Below the pieces are notes generated by a model that saw only the letters and a list, made by a program, of their open reading frames with translations, was not told where the DNA came from and ran no database searches. Below are positions 47,416-54,092 of a stretch of DNA of 64,000 bases, piece after piece (within the stretch, counting starts at the first letter, position 1; each line of letters opens with the position of its first letter). Source of the DNA: Rhodothalassiaceae bacterium (GTDB lineage Bacteria; Pseudomonadota; Alphaproteobacteria; Sphingomonadales; Rhodothalassiaceae); NCBI GenBank assembly GCA_026004935.1, contig BPKC01000001.1:2243381-2307380 (forward strand), written 5' to 3'. The translations under genes and the position numbers were made by a program.

Positions 47416-48417
47416 ATGCTGCCCTATCCCGGACGCTTTCCGACCACCCGGCTGCGCCGGCTCCGTCGCAGCGGCTGGTCGCGGTCGCTGGTCGCCGAGT
47501 CGCGGCTGGCGGTGAGCGACCTCATCTGGCCGATCTTCGTGACCCCGGCGGCGGACGACGAGGACATCCCCAGCATGCCGGGCGTCAGGCGCCATGCGCT
47601 CTCCTCGCTTCCCGCCGTGGCGGAGGAGGCGGCCCGGCTCGGCATTCCGCTGATCGCGGTGTTTCCCTATACGGCGAAGGAGGACCGCACGCCGCGCGGC
47701 GAAGAGGCGCTGAACCCCGACAACCTCGTCTGCCGCGCGATCCGCACGCTCAAGCGCGCCGCTCCCGAGGTCGGCGTCATGGCCGATGTCGCGCTCGATC
47801 CCTACACCAGCCATGGCCAGGACGGGATTCTGGACGAGCGGGGCGAGATCGCAAACGACGAGACGGTCGCCGTGCTCGTGGAACAGGCGCTGGTCGAGGC
47901 CCGTGCCGGCGCCGATATCGTCGCGCCCTCGGACATGATGGACGGGCGCATCGGCGCGATCCGGCGCGCGCTGGATGAGGCCGGGTTCGCGCATGTCCAG
48001 ATCATGTCCTACGCCGCCAAATACGCCTCCTGCTTCTACGGGCCGTTCCGGGATGCGGTGGGCTCGCGCGGGGTGCTCAAGGGCGACAAGAAGACCTACC
48101 AGATGGATCCGGCGAACGCGCGCGAGGCCCTGCGGGAGGTGGAGCTGGATCTGGCCGAAGGCGCGGATTCGCTGATCGTCAAGCCGGGGTTGCCCTATCT
48201 TGACGTGCTCTGGCGGGTCAAAGAGGCCTTCGGCGTGCCGACCTTCGCCTATCAGGTCTCGGGCGAATACGCGATGATCGCCGAAGCCGCCGCCCGGGGC
48301 GCCTTCGATCTCGATGCCGCGGTGCTCGAGTCGCTTCTCTGCTTCAAGCGCGCCGGCGCGGACGGCGTGCTCACCTACTTCGCCCCCCGCGCCGCGCGCC
48401 TGCTTGGGAGAAGTTGA
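47416..48417 (+). CDS. hemB: Delta-aminolevulinic acid dehydratase (porphobilinogen synthase)
   Basis: HemB condenses two 5-aminolevulinates to porphobilinogen for haem synthesis. The 333-residue protein has RLRRLRRSGWSRSLVAE, VALDPYTSHGQDGIL with no cysteine cluster (the magnesium-type enzyme found in alphaproteobacteria), IVAPSDMMDGRIGAI, MSYAAKYASCFYGPFRDA with the first active Lys, and ADSLIVKPGLPYLDVL with the Schiff-base Lys. GGGAG lies six bases before the ATG. It converges with the small-peptide cluster and a hairpin separates them. Confidence 0.97.
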   Translation: MLPYPGRFPTTRLRRLRRSGWSRSLVAESRLAVSDLIWPIFVTPAADDEDIPSMPGVRRHALSSLPAVAEEAARLGIPLIAVFPYTAKEDRTPRGEEALNPDNLVCRAIRTLKRAAPEVGVMADVALDPYTSHGQDGILDERGEIANDETVAVLVEQALVEARAGADIVAPSDMMDGRIGAIRRALDEAGFAHVQIMSYAAKYASCFYGPFRDAVGSRGVLKGDKKTYQMDPANAREALREVELDLAEGADSLIVKPGLPYLDVLWRVKEAFGVPTFAYQVSGEYAMIAEAAARGAFDLDAAVLESLLCFKRAGADGVLTYFAPRAARLLGRS

Positions 48418-48490: not shown

Positions 48491-48673
48491 TCAGCCGTCA
48501 CCCTCGGGCTCGACATCCAGAGGATAGACGTAGGTGATCCCCGTCGGGCAGCCGATGGGCGCCCCCGCACCTGCGATCACCACCTGCTCACGCTCATCAA
48601 GCGGACGCGCGACGAGCCGTCCCAGAACCCGGTCGCGCACGCTCACTTTGATCGTTTTCTGTTGCCGCGACAT
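48491..48673 (-). CDS. RiPP precursor-like peptide D
   Basis: A 60-residue peptide. Its leader RDRVLGRLVARPLDEREQVV ends in IAGAGAP and matches the leaders of the other three small peptides here (R-x-L-G-R-x-x-A-R-x-L-x-x-x-E). The presumed core after the AGAG is short and lacks the CxxC motif: IGCPTGITYVYPLDVEPEGD. It offers Thr and several acidic side chains, the partners needed for omega-ester links made by ATP-grasp ligases. AAGGGGG lies upstream of the ATG. Last gene of the cluster. Confidence 0.75.
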   Translation of the reverse strand: MSRQQKTIKVSVRDRVLGRLVARPLDEREQVVIAGAGAPIGCPTGITYVYPLDVEPEGDG

Positions 48674-48740
48674 CCTTGAACCCCCTTTTCGGTCGGAAGC
48701 ACGCCTCTCGATGCGGCATGCGGTTCAGAAAAGTAATCCT

Positions 48741-48929
48741 TCAACTGCCGCTTTCACCGTCAAGCGCGATATCGACCTTGCCGCCCACGCAGGTGATGCA
48801 GCTCTCGCAATTGAGCAGCCCTTTTTCATAGGGCTGGCCTGCGCCGGAAACCATTGCAACTTCACGCCCATTGAGCGGCCGAGCAAGCTGCCTGCCCAAG
48901 ACGCGAGCGCGATTTTCCGACTGCTGCAT
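48741..48929 (-). CDS. RiPP precursor-like peptide C, CxxCxxC core
   Basis: A 62-residue peptide with leader ARVLGRQLARPLNGREVAMV ending SGAGQPYEKG and core LLNCESCITCVGGKVDIALD. It is a close relative of peptide B: both share SGAG-x-PY-[ED]-K, then C-E-[ST]-C-I-T-C and GGK-[VF]-D. GAGAGGAGA lies seven bases before ATG 48929; an earlier in-frame ATG exists at 48950. Two such paralogues in a row suggest an expanded substrate set. Function is inferred from the neighbouring ATP-grasp genes. Confidence 0.8.
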   Translation of the reverse strand: MQQSENRARVLGRQLARPLNGREVAMVSGAGQPYEKGLLNCESCITCVGGKVDIALDGESGS

Positions 48930-48976
48930 GCTGATTCTCCTCTCAGCCATCATCCGCCTGTCCACACCAAAACCCC

Positions 48977-48997
48977 GCGGGAACCGCTTCTTCCCGC
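48977..48997 (-). terminator. Hairpin between peptide genes B and C
   Basis: Perfect 7-bp arms, GCGGGAA (48977-48983) and TTCCCGC (48991-48997), with a 7-base loop. On the minus strand it is followed by GGGGTTTTGG. It lies 28 bases past the stop of peptide B and could reduce read-through or protect an upstream mRNA end. Weak as a terminator. Confidence 0.4.
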
Positions 48998-49025
48998 AAT
49001 GGCGGACCCTGGGGCCGGAAAAGAA

Positions 49026-49202
49026 CTATATCTCGTTTTGCAGATCGAACTTTCCTCCGTAGCAGGTGATGCAGGTTTCACAGCCGATCAGCTCCTTGTC
49101 ATAGGGACCACCAGCACCTGAAACGAGCATCATCTCTCTTTTCGTCAACTCCCGCGCCACGCGGCGACCAAGCACCCGCATCGTCGCATCAGGTTTCTTC
49201 AT
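49026..49202 (-). CDS. RiPP precursor-like peptide B, CxxCxxC core
   Basis: A 58-residue peptide with leader MRVLGRRVARELTKREMMLV ending SGAGGPYDKE and core LIGCETCITCYGGKFDLQNE. The leader matches peptides A, C and D, and the core matches C. The binding site is excellent: GGAGGAGAGGAGCA directly upstream of ATG 49202, suggesting high expression, as is usual for RiPP precursors. The core combines three spaced cysteines with Thr and Asp/Glu, so either ester or amide crosslinks, metal binding or thioether chemistry could be imagined. Only the first is supported by the neighbouring ligases. Confidence 0.82.
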   Translation of the reverse strand: MKKPDATMRVLGRRVARELTKREMMLVSGAGGPYDKELIGCETCITCYGGKFDLQNEI

Positions 49203-49240
49203 TGCTCCTCTCCTCCTTCCTTTCCGGGTCAATCGTAGGG

Positions 49241-49324
49241 TCAACCCTCACAGGCGAAGCAGGCGGCGCAGAAACCGCAAGTCCTGCTCCCGTCGGAAAT
49301 TTCGGCCGTGCTGGCAGCCCCCAT
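49241..49324 (-). CDS. 27-residue cysteine-rich micropeptide (CxxCxxCxxC)
   Basis: A very short gene between the second ATP-grasp gene and peptide B. It has a strong binding site (GGGGAGG, five bases before the ATG) and a promoter-like sequence just upstream. The product starts MGAASTAEISDGSRT and ends CGFCAACFACEG, so four cysteines are spaced CxxCxxCxxC. It has no leader like its neighbours, but the cysteine spacing echoes the CxxCxxC cores of peptides B and C. It could be a leaderless substrate, a metal-binding helper or a regulatory peptide. No family is recognised. Confidence 0.6.
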   Translation of the reverse strand: MGAASTAEISDGSRTCGFCAACFACEG

Positions 49325-49350
49325 TGACACCTCCCCATCCGGGAATGGAC

Positions 49351-49379
49351 ATTCTGCCTTATTAGTATGCAGGAGTCAA
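49351..49379 (-). promoter_or_regulatory. Sigma70-like promoter in front of the micropeptide and peptides B-D
   Basis: On the minus strand TTGACT (49379-49374) and CAGAAT (49356-49351) are separated by exactly 17 bases. Transcription would start near 49344, about 20 bases before the micropeptide ATG. The patch is AT-rich relative to its surroundings. It would give the downstream peptide genes expression independent of the ligase genes. Confidence 0.5.
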
Positions 49380-49423
49380 TACTGACACACGCCGCCTTTT
49401 GAACATTTTCTTTCTGCGGACAC

Positions 49424-50557
49424 TCAGACTTCGACAACGGCTTTGCGCCCAGCTGCAATGTCGGCAAGAGGGATGAGAGACCCTTCCGGTCGGTAGACGA
49501 ACTCGGGATCGCGACTCAGCAGGAAGCGGCAGAAGGCATCCAGCAATGGGACCTCTGGCAGGCGGAACTCGATCCACAGCCATTGGCCCATCTCGTTGAC
49601 TTCCAGAAAAACGGTGTCACCCTCGGGGGTCACAATCAGGTCGAAGCAACCGAAGACGATCCCCAGCATCCTCATGACGCGTCGACAGGCTTCGACGACC
49701 GCCGGCGGCAGCGTGACGCGCGCAAGCGGCAACTCCTCGGGAAAGATGTTGCGCCAATCTACGGATCCATCGGGATGGCGCTGCGAATCGATGCGGATCG
49801 CAAAAGCCTGCGCGCCCATGATGGTCAGGCGTACCTCGTATGCCTTCGGGACACGGCGCTGGAGGATGTTGGGTGTCGCGCGCAACAGCTCGTCATCGGG
49901 CAGATCCTCCTCCGAGACCGGACTTGCGAGCGTCGCCAGCATACCTCCGTCCTCTTCCCAGCTGTTGACGGCGAACGGCTTGTACACGACGCCCGCGTCG
50001 CGATTCCGACGCAGGAACGCGCGGATCTGGGCGGGATCATTGGTAACGATGGTCTCGGGGATCGTGAGCCCGGCCGCCCGCGCCACCTGCAGCTGAAGGA
50101 TCTTGCTGTCGGCGCGTCGGGCAGCGGCAAAGGGATTGACCCAGAAGGCGCCTGGTGCCGCCGCATGCCACAGAGCATTGTGGAAAAACCGCAGCTCGCG
50201 CGCGACAAATGCACGGTCCCGTTGATCGACCACCGCAGGCGGCTGCGGCATCCGGATTCGGCGTGCCCAGACGACATCGGCGTCGCCCAGCTCCGCTGCG
50301 CCCGCTTCATGCGCATATTCTTTGAGCGCGCGCGCCTCATCATCATCGCGCTGCGCTTCTTCGGCCGTCTCTTCGCCTGGCTCCAGCCGCATGTGCCAGG
50401 AAGAATCCCCATCCGGCCCCAATGTGATCGTCTGGCGGAGATGGGCGGGGTAGGCAGAAGTATAGAGCAGGACGACCTCGTGACCGAGCCTTTCGAGGCC
50501 CCGTCGCACCGCCCGCGCGTGCACGTCTTCCGCGATGGTGGCGATGACAACCTTCAT
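49424..50557 (-). CDS. ATP-grasp peptide ligase, graspetide-synthetase-like (second)
   Basis: A 377-residue ATP-grasp protein like the MvdC/MvdD-type enzymes that join Ser/Thr or Lys side chains to Asp/Glu in precursor peptides. It has an N-terminal Rossmann-like half (MKVVIATIAEDVHARAV), DADVVWARRIR (98-102 region), FWVNPFAAARRADSK (138-152), ETIVTNDPAQIRAFL (168-182), VVYKPFAVNSWEED (ATP-binding Lys 193) and VFLEVNEMGQWLW (316-328, metal ligands Glu319 and Asn321). ATG 50557 overlaps the preceding ligase stop as ATGA. No transporter or protease gene is beside it. Confidence 0.85.
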   Translation of the reverse strand: MKVVIATIAEDVHARAVRRGLERLGHEVVLLYTSAYPAHLRQTITLGPDGDSSWHMRLEPGEETAEEAQRDDDEARALKEYAHEAGAAELGDADVVWARRIRMPQPPAVVDQRDRAFVARELRFFHNALWHAAAPGAFWVNPFAAARRADSKILQLQVARAAGLTIPETIVTNDPAQIRAFLRRNRDAGVVYKPFAVNSWEEDGGMLATLASPVSEEDLPDDELLRATPNILQRRVPKAYEVRLTIMGAQAFAIRIDSQRHPDGSVDWRNIFPEELPLARVTLPPAVVEACRRVMRMLGIVFGCFDLIVTPEGDTVFLEVNEMGQWLWIEFRLPEVPLLDAFCRFLLSRDPEFVYRPEGSLIPLADIAAGRKAVVEV

Positions 50558-51672
50558 GCCGGCGCTTCCTCCCTCTTCGGTTTCAGGAATCTTTCGAGCC
50601 TGAGACTGCGTCGAAACGCCTGCGTGGCCCCTGAGAATCCGGCATCCGCCTCCCACAACAGACCGCAGAAATGGGCGAGCATCGGCAGCTCCGGACAGGC
50701 CTCCTCCAGCCAGAGGAACTGGCCGGCCTCGTTGACTTCGAGAAAGACCCACTCGCCCTCGGCAGTGCGGACAAGATCAAGGCAGCCGAACCGCAGATCG
50801 AGACTGTCCATGAGGCGCCGCACCGCATCTTCCACCGGGGCAGGCAGATTCACGGGGGCCACGGTAAGCCATGAGGGGTGAACCCTCTTCCAATCGATCG
50901 CACCGGCTGGAAGCTCGGCCGAAACCTCGGCCGCGACCACGCAGTGGCCGAAGACCACCACCCGGACATCCGCGACCTTCTCGATGACCTCCTGATAGAT
51001 GCCCGGCGCTGCTTCCAGCATCGCGCTGTCGCCAAGAAAATCCGTCGTTACGACTTCGGCGTGGACTGCCAGTCGCGCATCCTGTTCCTCCCAATTGAAG
51101 GGGCCGAAGGGCTTGTAGACCGCGCGACCTCCAAGGGTGGACACGAATGCCCGGATGCGCTCGGGCTCATTGCTCATCAGCGTGCGGGGGATCTTCCAGC
51201 CCATGTCGGCCGCGGCACGCAATTGCCGGGCCTTGCGCTCGGCCTCGCGGGCGACCCTCGGCCCGTTGACCCAGAAAGCCCGCGGCCACGCGACCGACAG
51301 CGCGCTCTGCCAGAACCGCTCCGCCTCTCGTTCGGCAAACCGCCTGTCATCGGGATCTGCGAGCGCGCTGCGCGCCAGGCCGGTACGCCGCAGCCAGACG
51401 CGCAGTCCTTCCCCGCTTGCCGCGAAATCAACGCATGACGGATCTATGACACGCTCTGATGGTGCCGGTTTCTCTGCGATACCCCTGAGAGGATCAATAA
51501 GCAGCGAATGTGGTTCACCGCTCAGCAACCGAGTCGTGTCTACCGCAGCCACCGCCCCGCCGAGGGCCTGCCATGCGGATGACACGACATGCGCATGCGT
51601 GTCGCCGTCGGAGGTAAAAACGACGAGAGTGGGGCCGCCGTCATCTCGAGCGCCGCCACGACACCCAGCCAT
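50554..51672 (-). CDS. ATP-grasp peptide ligase, graspetide-synthetase-like (first)
   Basis: A 372-residue paralogue of the second ligase. It keeps the key pieces: LRVWLRRTG, FWVNGPRVAREAERKARQL, IPRTLMSNEPERIRAFV, AVYKPFGPFNWEE (ATP-binding Lys) and WVFLEVNEAGQFLWLE (metal-binding Glu/Asn). The N-terminal half TLVVFTSDGDTHAHVV is shorter and differs from the second ligase. ATG 51672 has a run of G just upstream. Two non-identical ligases in tandem suggest sequential or differently placed ring closures on the same precursor, as in microviridin-type systems; the ester/amide split is not decidable here. Confidence 0.85.
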   Translation of the reverse strand: MAGCRGGARDDGGPTLVVFTSDGDTHAHVVSSAWQALGGAVAAVDTTRLLSGEPHSLLIDPLRGIAEKPAPSERVIDPSCVDFAASGEGLRVWLRRTGLARSALADPDDRRFAEREAERFWQSALSVAWPRAFWVNGPRVAREAERKARQLRAAADMGWKIPRTLMSNEPERIRAFVSTLGGRAVYKPFGPFNWEEQDARLAVHAEVVTTDFLGDSAMLEAAPGIYQEVIEKVADVRVVVFGHCVVAAEVSAELPAGAIDWKRVHPSWLTVAPVNLPAPVEDAVRRLMDSLDLRFGCLDLVRTAEGEWVFLEVNEAGQFLWLEEACPELPMLAHFCGLLWEADAGFSGATQAFRRSLRLERFLKPKREEAPA

Positions 51673-51696
51673 GAGCCCCCCGGATTGCAGACAGAT

Positions 51697-51725
51697 GGGG
51701 AAAGGGGGCCGATCCCCCTTTCCCC
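51697..51725 (-). terminator. Perfect 12-bp hairpin between precursor A and the first ligase gene
   Basis: GGGGAAAGGGGG (51697-51708) and CCCCCTTTCCCC (51714-51725) are perfect inverted repeats with a 5-base loop. It starts eight bases after the stop of precursor A and ends 25 bases before the ligase ATG. There is no U-tract. Such a stable stem is well placed to stabilise the precursor mRNA 3' end or attenuate ligase expression, giving more peptide than enzyme. Confidence 0.6.
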
Positions 51726-51732
51726 GCTCCGG

Positions 51733-51927
51733 TCAATAGCGCGAGCCGGAGGAGTCGCATTTGACGACGAGATTGCCGTTCTCGTCATAGTAGGCCGTCG
51801 TCGCGAAGGTTTGCCCTGAACAGAACTGATCGAAATACGACTCGCCGCCTGAAACGCGAGCGACCTCCTCCTCCGCAAGCGGCCGTGCCAGCCTGCGAGC
51901 CAGCGTCTGCGTGCGTGCGTCAATCAT
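51733..51927 (-). CDS. RiPP precursor-like peptide A
   Basis: A 64-residue peptide, first gene of the cluster. Its leader RTQTLARRLARPLAEEEVAR ends VSGGESYFDQ, matching the leader pattern of B-D. The core differs: FCSGQTFATTAYYDENGNLV then KCDSSGSRY, rich in Thr and Ser with Asp and Glu, which suits omega-ester formation by the ligases encoded just downstream. AAGGGGAAA lies seven bases before ATG 51927; the frame is open 27 codons further without a similar signal. Confidence 0.8.
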   Translation of the reverse strand: MIDARTQTLARRLARPLAEEEVARVSGGESYFDQFCSGQTFATTAYYDENGNLVVKCDSSGSRY

Positions 51928-52033
51928 GAGATTTCCCCTTCTTCGTTGGACAGTTCGTCCGAGGCGCCCCCGGACAACAATACCTTGCTCCAGCCGGATG
52001 CTCGCCACAAATCACAATTGCGTGAGGATAACA

Positions 52034-52061
52034 GATTTATCGCACTCCTCTCGGAAATCAA
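52034..52061 (-). promoter_or_regulatory. Candidate sigma70-like promoter of the ligase operon
   Basis: On the minus strand TTGATT (52061-52056) and TAAATC (52039-52034) are separated by 16 bases, about 105 bases upstream of peptide A. The area is the only AT-rich patch between peptide A and the divergent amidase gene. The match is moderate. Confidence 0.4.
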
Positions 52062-52223
52062 ATGAAAACACCCGCGATGCGGGCATTGCCGACGAGCGGT
52101 GCCGTCCGGTAAACTCAAGCAGGAATTGCGCTCTGGCCACCGGGCCCCTCAGAGTATTCGTTGCGTTCCGGCATCGCGCTCGACACCATGAATGGAGGGC
52201 CAGGCGCGGGAAGGAGACCGGCG

Positions 52224-54092
52224 ATGAGCGGCAGAATCGAGAAACGTGCCGACACTGGTGCCGTCGCAAGGCGGCACCGAAAAGCACGCGACGATGGAGG
52301 CCTGTCCCGCCGGGCGCTGCTGCGGGCGGGGGCCGCTGCGGGAATTGCGGCACCGCTGGTGCCGGGGCTGCTGGCCAGGGCGCAGGAGGCGGCGGAGGCA
52401 CCGAAACCAGGGGCGGCCGAGATCATGGCCTGCTCCCGGGTCATCGATCTTCCGCTCACCGAGCATGAGACCGAGCAGCTTGCGCGGACCATCGAGGAGA
52501 ACCTCGGCGCGATCCGCGCCCTGCGGGCGCTTAACTTGGAGAACGACGTCGCACCCGCCACCATCTTCCGGCCGCTGCCGAACGGTGAGGCTCCGCCGGC
52601 CGTGAAACCGGGCGTGCGCGGCATCAGGGCCGACACGCGCCGCAAGCCGGGCGGCGAGGAGGATGTCGCCTTCGCCCCGCTCGCCGATCTCGGCCACTGG
52701 ATCCGCACGAAACAGATCTCCTCGCGCGAGCTCACCCGGCTCTATCTCGACCGCATCGCCCGCTACGATCCGCTGCTGCTCGCCTTCATCACCGTGACCG
52801 AGGATCTGGCGATCCAGGAGGCGGCCGCACGCGACGAGGAGACGGCGAAGGGCCGCATCCGCGGGCCGCTGCACGGCATCCCCTACGGGCTCAAGGATCT
52901 CGTGGATACGGCCGGGATCCGCACGACCTGGGGCGCCATGCCCTACAAGGACCGCGTACCGGCACAGGACGCAGCAATCGTGGAGAAGCTGCGCGCGGCG
53001 GGCGCCGTGCTCCTAGGCAAGACGACGGACGGCGCCATCGCCTACGGCGACATCTGGTTCGGCGGCCGGACCCGCAATCCCTGGAACCCGCTCGAAGGCT
53101 CGAGCGGGTCATCGGCCGGCTCCGCGAGCGCCACCGCCGCCGGGCTCGTCGCCTTTTCCATCGGCACGGAGACCCTGGGCTCCATCGTCTCGCCGTCCAA
53201 TCGCTGCGGCACCGTGGGCCTCAGGCCCACCTTCGGGCGGGTGTCGCGCCACGGCGCGATGGCGCTGTGCTGGTCGCTCGACAAGATCGGTCCGATCTGC
53301 CGCCATGTCGCGGACACGGCGCTGGTGCTCGCGGCCATCAACGGCTTCGATCCGCGCGACGCCGCCTCCGTCGCGGCCGACTTCGGCTGGAACGCGGGCG
53401 AGAAGCGGAGCCTGCGCATCGCCCATGACGAGGCCTGGTTCAAGGATGCGGCGGACGCGGACAAGGCCGCACTCGCCGCCCTGAAGGCCATGCCGGGCGT
53501 CACTCTGGAAACCGTCTCGCTGCCGGACTGGCCCTATGCGGGGCTCTTTTCCGTCGTCGAGATCGAGGCGGCGGCGGCCTTCCAGGAGCTGACGCTTTCC
53601 GGCCGCGACGATCTCATGGTCTGGCAGGACGACAACGCATGGCCCAACACCTGGCGCAAGGCTCATTTCTTCCCGGCCGTGGACTTCGTGAACGCCCAGC
53701 GCTTCCGCCGGCGAGTGATGGAGATGATGTGGGAGAAGCTGGACCGCGCCGGCATCGACGCGCTGATCAGCCCGAACTACGCCGGCAATCTGCTCGTGAT
53801 CACGAATTTCACCGGCCATCCCTGCCTCACCATCCCGGCCGGATTCATCGAAACGCCCACGCGCACCGGCTTCGGCAACCAGGCGGACGAACAGGCGCCG
53901 CGCTTCCGCGTGCCGCGCAACGTCACGCTTTGGGGACCGCTGTTCCGGGAGGATCGGCTGCTCGCGATCGGCGCCCGTCTCGAGCAGGCGCTCGGACTCG
54001 CGCCGCAGCTGCGCCCGCCGCTCGAGCGCTGGATGGCGGAATACGATGGCAGGGCTCCCGAGATGTCCAAACCGGAGCCGCAGCCCGCGTGA
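52224..54092 (+). CDS. Tat-exported amidase (amidase signature family)
   Basis: A 622-residue amidase-signature hydrolase acting on amide bonds, probably periplasmic. The N-terminus has a twin-arginine signal, LSRRALLRAGAAAGIAAPLV, ending near LLARAQEA. The catalytic core shows GIPYGLKDLVDTAG (catalytic Lys), the serine-rich EGSSGSSAGSASATAAG (cis-Ser and nucleophile) and FSIGTETLGSIVSPSNRCG. ATG 52224 has GGGAAGGAG about seven bases upstream; the frame is open to 52161. It is divergent from the peptide cluster; a role in trimming its products is conceivable but unproven. Confidence 0.9.
   Translation: MSGRIEKRADTGAVARRHRKARDDGGLSRRALLRAGAAAGIAAPLVPGLLARAQEAAEAPKPGAAEIMACSRVIDLPLTEHETEQLARTIEENLGAIRALRALNLENDVAPATIFRPLPNGEAPPAVKPGVRGIRADTRRKPGGEEDVAFAPLADLGHWIRTKQISSRELTRLYLDRIARYDPLLLAFITVTEDLAIQEAAARDEETAKGRIRGPLHGIPYGLKDLVDTAGIRTTWGAMPYKDRVPAQDAAIVEKLRAAGAVLLGKTTDGAIAYGDIWFGGRTRNPWNPLEGSSGSSAGSASATAAGLVAFSIGTETLGSIVSPSNRCGTVGLRPTFGRVSRHGAMALCWSLDKIGPICRHVADTALVLAAINGFDPRDAASVAADFGWNAGEKRSLRIAHDEAWFKDAADADKAALAALKAMPGVTLETVSLPDWPYAGLFSVVEIEAAAAFQELTLSGRDDLMVWQDDNAWPNTWRKAHFFPAVDFVNAQRFRRRVMEMMWEKLDRAGIDALISPNYAGNLLVITNFTGHPCLTIPAGFIETPTRTGFGNQADEQAPRFRVPRNVTLWGPLFREDRLLAIGARLEQALGLAPQLRPPLERWMAEYDGRAPEMSKPEPQPA

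Follow-up and report, generated by a model that had tools for sequence, protein, structure and literature searches.

A predicted graspetide operon with two tandem ATP-grasp ligases and four precursor peptides in a Rhodothalassiaceae bacterium

What is made by an operon in which two tandem ATP-grasp ligase genes lie among four genes for small peptides? Such a group of genes had been picked out in the window, the whole stretch of 64,000 nucleotides of Rhodothalassiaceae DNA that was analysed, and was thought to be a graspetide-like locus. All six genes are indeed present, on the minus strand and in the order A, lig1, lig2, B, C, D. Precursor A (64 aa) is encoded at 51733..51927, lig1 (P0002, 372 aa) at 50554..51672, lig2 (P0003, 377 aa) at 49424..50557, precursor B (P0004, 58 aa) at 49026..49202, precursor C (P0005, 62 aa) at 48741..48929 and precursor D (P0006, 60 aa) at 48491..48673. 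The start of lig2 overlaps the stop of lig1 by 4 bp (ATGA). The span first assigned to the cluster contains all six genes but runs too far at its upper limit (52061), since the ATG of A is at 51927. Codon use shows B and C to be genuine coding genes: 20 of their 32 identical residues use a different synonymous codon, and their differences are distributed 23/15/40 over the three codon positions. An Rfam search gave no matches, and precursor C gave none against plasmids.

The operon is flanked by two plus-strand genes that are not part of it, hemB (47416..48417), which is 65–84% identical in family relatives, and a divergent amidase gene (52161..54092). In three genomes of the same family (G002, G005 and G006) 0.3 to 1.1 kb separates the hemB and amidase matches, and neither a ligase nor a good leader match lies in between. 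Thus, on this comparison of gene order, the cluster seems to have been inserted in this genus. Its GC content is about 57–66%, against roughly 66–73% in the flanks.

The best NCBIfam profiles for both ligases are RiPP ATP-grasp maturase models, with E-values of 1e-37 to 1e-60 (for TIGR04187, 6e-53 with lig1 and 2e-59 with lig2), all scoring below the curated cut-offs. The nearest solved structures are MdnB/MdnC-type enzymes, AMdnB for lig1 (E 2e-25) and MdnC for lig2 (E 8e-37). AlphaFold models of the two ligases (mean pLDDT 84.7 and 88.5) match MdnC at Z 28.4 and 30.9, respectively, and MdnC, AMdnB, CdnC, MdnB, PsnB and PruB together at Z 24–31. An alignment-based scan of named genome contigs yielded 80 ligase loci, mostly in Pseudomonadota and Myxococcota, while a protein-only scan with lig2 gave no match in genome contigs. 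In an alignment with 93 relatives, lig1 and lig2 keep all invariant columns (N141, K152, Q155, Q233, R243, D267, D306, F317, L318, E319 and G324 in lig2 numbering), and both are therefore likely to be catalytically active. By sequence, tree and predicted fold, lig1 and lig2 are graspetide synthetases.

The four peptides had been reported to share a leader pattern. This pattern is real, far beyond chance, but only approximate, as A has Q for the first R and D has I-A-G for V-S-G. The leader has two layers, a specific RhLxRxxAR part followed by a generic LxxxEhxxhxGG/GA export half. The latter is the general double-glycine export signal, as in leaders of the class II bacteriocin type, and the leader matches its positions L(-12), E(-8), h(-4), G(-2) and G/A(-1). 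A bacteriocin-like ORF elsewhere (L063) has the export half without RhLxRxxAR. A profile of the four precursors run across the genome recovered the four operon genes and two weaker matches (E 0.006–0.007), which likewise adjoin ATP-grasp ligases. The co-occurrence of leader and ligase was searched for with a 22-residue leader profile in 385 alphaproteobacterial and 398 proteobacterial genomes. Full-length matches occurred in the bacterium's own genome only, beside ligases; all others were partial and mostly within long frames. Because the profile was built with the genome's own leaders (that of A, QTLARRLARPLAEEEVARVSGG, scores E 7e-9), the informative point is the absence of background. Among the 80 ligase loci, about 39 gave matches to the leader profile, with about 47 distinct precursors in all, so the leader is conserved in relatives, and precursors with an RhLxRxxAR-type leader accompany such ligases in many genera.

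The cores of A, B, C and D are ESYFDQFCSGQTFATTAYYDENGNLVVKCDSSGSRY, GGPYDKELIGCETCITCYGGKFDLQNEI, GQPYEKGLLNCESCITCVGGKVDIALDGESGS and GAPIGCPTGITYVYPLDVEPEGDG, respectively. They were originally sorted into three types, a division that did not survive closer comparison: B, C and D follow one template, [S/T]xxTx(5-6)Dxxx[D/E], and A is the odd one out. C has the S/T-T-D-D spacing of B, with T/S and E/D the sole differences at the ring positions, and D, with a loop one residue shorter, is a shorter relative of both, not a separate type, which keeps the template with two of its three Cys positions (CxxCxxC) replaced. The more general pattern [S/T]xx[S/T]x(5-6)[D/E]xxx[D/E] arose in shuffled sequences at frequencies of 0.003, 0.010 and 0.002 for B, C and D, although these chance rates are a guide only, as the template was derived from the same cores. 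Core alignments of B with D (P 0.012) and of D with a Kordiimonas precursor (L027; P 0.016) gave these values as single pairs among 91. The core of A, which also contains donors and acceptors, departs from the template and shows no recognised pattern. Homology of its core to that of a precursor in the sister genome G001 seemed plausible by eye and was dropped (P 0.17).

Over 40 cores of this ligase clade, the fraction of pairs with Ser/Thr ahead of Asp/Glu is 69%, where 50% is expected and 2000 shuffles reached at most 61%. Graspetide donors and acceptors should stand in this order, though the effect is somewhat inflated because related cores are not independent. Cysteine-bearing cores had been taken as foreign to described graspetides. 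That view fails for this clade, where Cys occurs in 34 of the 40 cores and at least two Cys in 26, and Makarova et al. 2022 (PMC8939145) had already reported multi-precursor loci and, in many graspetide precursors, conserved cysteines. Enrichment of CxxC and of [ST]C across the cores was not significant (P 0.13 and 0.07). A CxxCxxC core is also seen in a Pelomonas precursor (L132:3724-3939; MTGCDGCGGCDAD / MTGCDGCGGCDADYGRDND), adjoined by a divergent ligase and a C39-ABC gene.

Further information on the ligase pair came from G001. Here the divergent amidase gene, 77% identical over 256 aa, flanks a precursor with this leader, a ligase and the first part of a lig2 orthologue, and the two ligase genes again overlap by ATGA. 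The G001 ligase is 40% identical to lig1 and 39% to lig2, while the lig2 orthologue is identical at 25 of 32 residues (78%), only its start being seen as the contig ends there. Thus, the tandem pair is conserved in the genus, in two species, as read from these gene starts and overlaps; within the flanks covered, it was seen at none of the 80 named relatives. The lig1/A half is far more divergent between the two species than the lig2 half, with neighbouring genes 77–84% identical, and fast change or replacement is a possible cause. In G001, hemB (84% identical; L185, contig C259) lies apart from the graspetide genes, and contig C137 has another partial match to hemB; either rearrangement or a mixed assembly could give this placement.

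The two ligases are themselves 41% identical. In the careful tree lig1 groups with the G001 ligase (support 94/97, short of a star), and the grouping of lig2 with that ligase gave p 0.04. A recent tandem duplication is possible, a lig1+lig2 clade having an AU test p of 0.149; the ligases may also have come from an older common duplication. We infer, with moderate to low confidence, that lig1 serves A and that lig2 serves B, C and D. The relative with the highest identity to lig2 (46%) is a Kordiimonas ligase fragment (L026:4718-5554), a remnant missing ∼123 N-terminal residues, the N-terminal third, and without a recognisable precursor, and it is therefore of no help with the pairing.

No transporter gene lies within the operon. 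About 20 kb away, outside it, is a gene for a C39 peptidase-ABC protein of 777 aa, TIGR03796-like but below cut-off. It shares 57% identity with the C39-ABC gene near an Azospirillum ligase, 50% with a Nitrosomonas one and 35–50% with those at more than 20 other relatives, giving about 25 ligase loci (35–57%) in all within the flanks. As the simplest reading of this homology, the protein probably cleaves the leader and exports the product in trans. The genome also has an NHLM export locus (L044:4209-6337), in which HlyD is above cut-off and a frameshift divides ABC1 (peptidase plus permease).

The idea of a graspetide-like locus is thus supported by profiles, PDB relatives, tree, fold, conserved columns, leader–ligase co-occurrence and core residue order. 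The operon has ATP-grasp ligases of the synthetase branch, leader-conserved precursors adjoining them and, in B, C and D, cores of the graspetide kind (Ser/Thr/Lys donors, Asp/Glu acceptors). We have high confidence, from sequence and structural models, that it is a graspetide biosynthetic operon, and it is predicted, very probably, to make four ring-closed peptides of this known class. In the proposed mechanism, the RhLxRxxAR part of the leader would dock on the ligase, which would phosphorylate Asp/Glu side chains of the core, and Ser/Thr hydroxyls would displace the phosphate to give side-chain esters, as graspetide synthetases do (PMC13097080). For B, C and D two nested side-chain ester rings are predicted with moderate confidence: in the inner ring the template's second Thr would be linked to Asp, and in the outer ring its first Ser/Thr would be linked to the Glu/Asp located four positions beyond that Asp, forming a hairpin (in B, T46-D53 and T43-E57). 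Most likely lig2 would act on the downstream B, C and D and lig1 on the preceding A. The C39 peptidase-ABC transporter would then cut after SG(G/A) and export the product, and the cysteines may finally be oxidised or metal-bound outside the cytoplasm. Taken as a whole, with leader docking, ester rings and export in trans, we consider this explanation likely to be right.

The ligases could instead act sequentially on all precursors. In microviridin biosynthesis one ligase makes esters and the other an amide, and here the Lys of GGK(F/V)D would serve as amide donor. This precedent, the 4-bp overlap in both species of the genus and the occurrence of that Lys in both B and C agree with sequential action; however, the core of D has no Lys, microviridin ligase pairs branch together and apart from lig1 and lig2 (100/99), and relatives with similar leaders usually have a single ligase, which leaves it possible but doubtful. 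The cysteines raise a different question, whether the thiols of CxxCxxC are the native donors and attack activated carboxylates to form thioester rings. We think this very unlikely, given that B, C and D hold Ser/Thr of the right order and spacing and that the template of D persists despite its lost cysteines, even though graspetide synthetases can form non-native thioesters once the donor is replaced (PMC13097080, PMC12291112) and Cys precedes Asp/Glu somewhat more often than expected in the 40 cores (0.60, P 0.018). The broader proposal that CxxCxxC is functional, either as native donor, making these natural thioester graspetides, or as a metal or redox centre presented by the ester hairpin, is unlikely too; if the hairpin did present such a centre, graspetide ring closure would build a miniature metal-binding or redox peptide.

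It would be a departure from graspetide chemistry altogether if the ligases, like RimK or glutathione synthetase, added free amino acids to a peptide or metabolite and the small ORFs were incidental. The superfamily fold is shared, the RimK profile matches weakly (E about 5e-5 to 7e-5) and RimK structures reach Z about 22, but the RimK profile falls far behind the graspetide profiles, and all nine entries for solved structures that score higher than RimK belong to RiPP ATP-grasp ligases. Neither enzyme type is the best profile or structural match, and the ligases do not group with them by profiles, tree or fold ranking. With same-leader precursors accompanying such ligases in many genera, this reading is extremely improbable, and the graspetide operon is the explanation we retain.

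Besides that in the window, the genome has five more graspetide-type ligase loci (L034, L035, L036, L037 and L038). The microviridin-like leader PF(I/L)xxKRE marks a second graspetide family, which occurs at L034, L035 and L038 and at L031 of G001. Its four cores share [ST]TxC..[NT]S..C x[GA]DDxxxD, and within nested ester rings their two invariant Cys could be joined by a disulfide. The ligase gene at L038:4707-5916 (minus strand) is broken into two overlapping reading frames by a frameshift, which indicates a pseudogene or a sequencing error.

The operon documents, in two species, a two-ligase graspetide system outside the microviridin branch. With its lig1/A half divergent (40%) and lig2 (78% over 32 residues) and the neighbours (77–84%) conserved, it is a natural setting in which to ask whether paired ligases divide their work by bond or by substrate. 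As Cys-bearing cores are the rule in the leader-sharing clade, the role of cysteine can be tested on many loci.

Among known systems, the microviridins (MdnB/MdnC or MvdC/MvdD) likewise have two tandem ATP-grasp ligases of the same fold and, it is expected, the same mechanism, but MdnB, MdnC and AMdnB form a separate branch, none of A, B, C and D has the PFFARFL leader, and the operon has no microviridin core motif. The thatisin-type graspetides of Lysobacter are alike in leader (RPLARxxARELSLDEIAAISGG), ligase clade and a nearby C39-ABC gene, but have one ligase and a core, THATGPNGDDPGDP, without Cys. Leader profile and alignment show the THATGPNGDD cores of Lysobacter antibioticus to be preceded by the same leader as in the operon; these precursors are probably thatisin, which is named as a group-16 graspetide (PMC13097080), and a THATGPNGDD-like core is found in none of A, B, C and D. 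Multi-precursor loci of Bacteroidetes (branch 5 of Makarova et al.) share several diverse precursors, GG motifs and conserved cysteines (PMC8939145), but carry SPASM radical-SAM enzymes, none of which is seen in this operon. For the nested Thr–Asp ester hairpin, fuscimiditide provides the precedent (PMC12291112): fuscimiditide and the CPR cores TxxxTx(6-10)Dx(1-4)D also have two Thr donors, a loop and two acidic acceptors in a nested hairpin (PMC12291112, PMC8939145), whereas here the donors are three residues apart, not four, and Cys-flanked, with a loop of 5–6 residues. Two ligases and cysteines beside the ring-forming residues make the operon unusual, but neither a new class nor a new kind of system.
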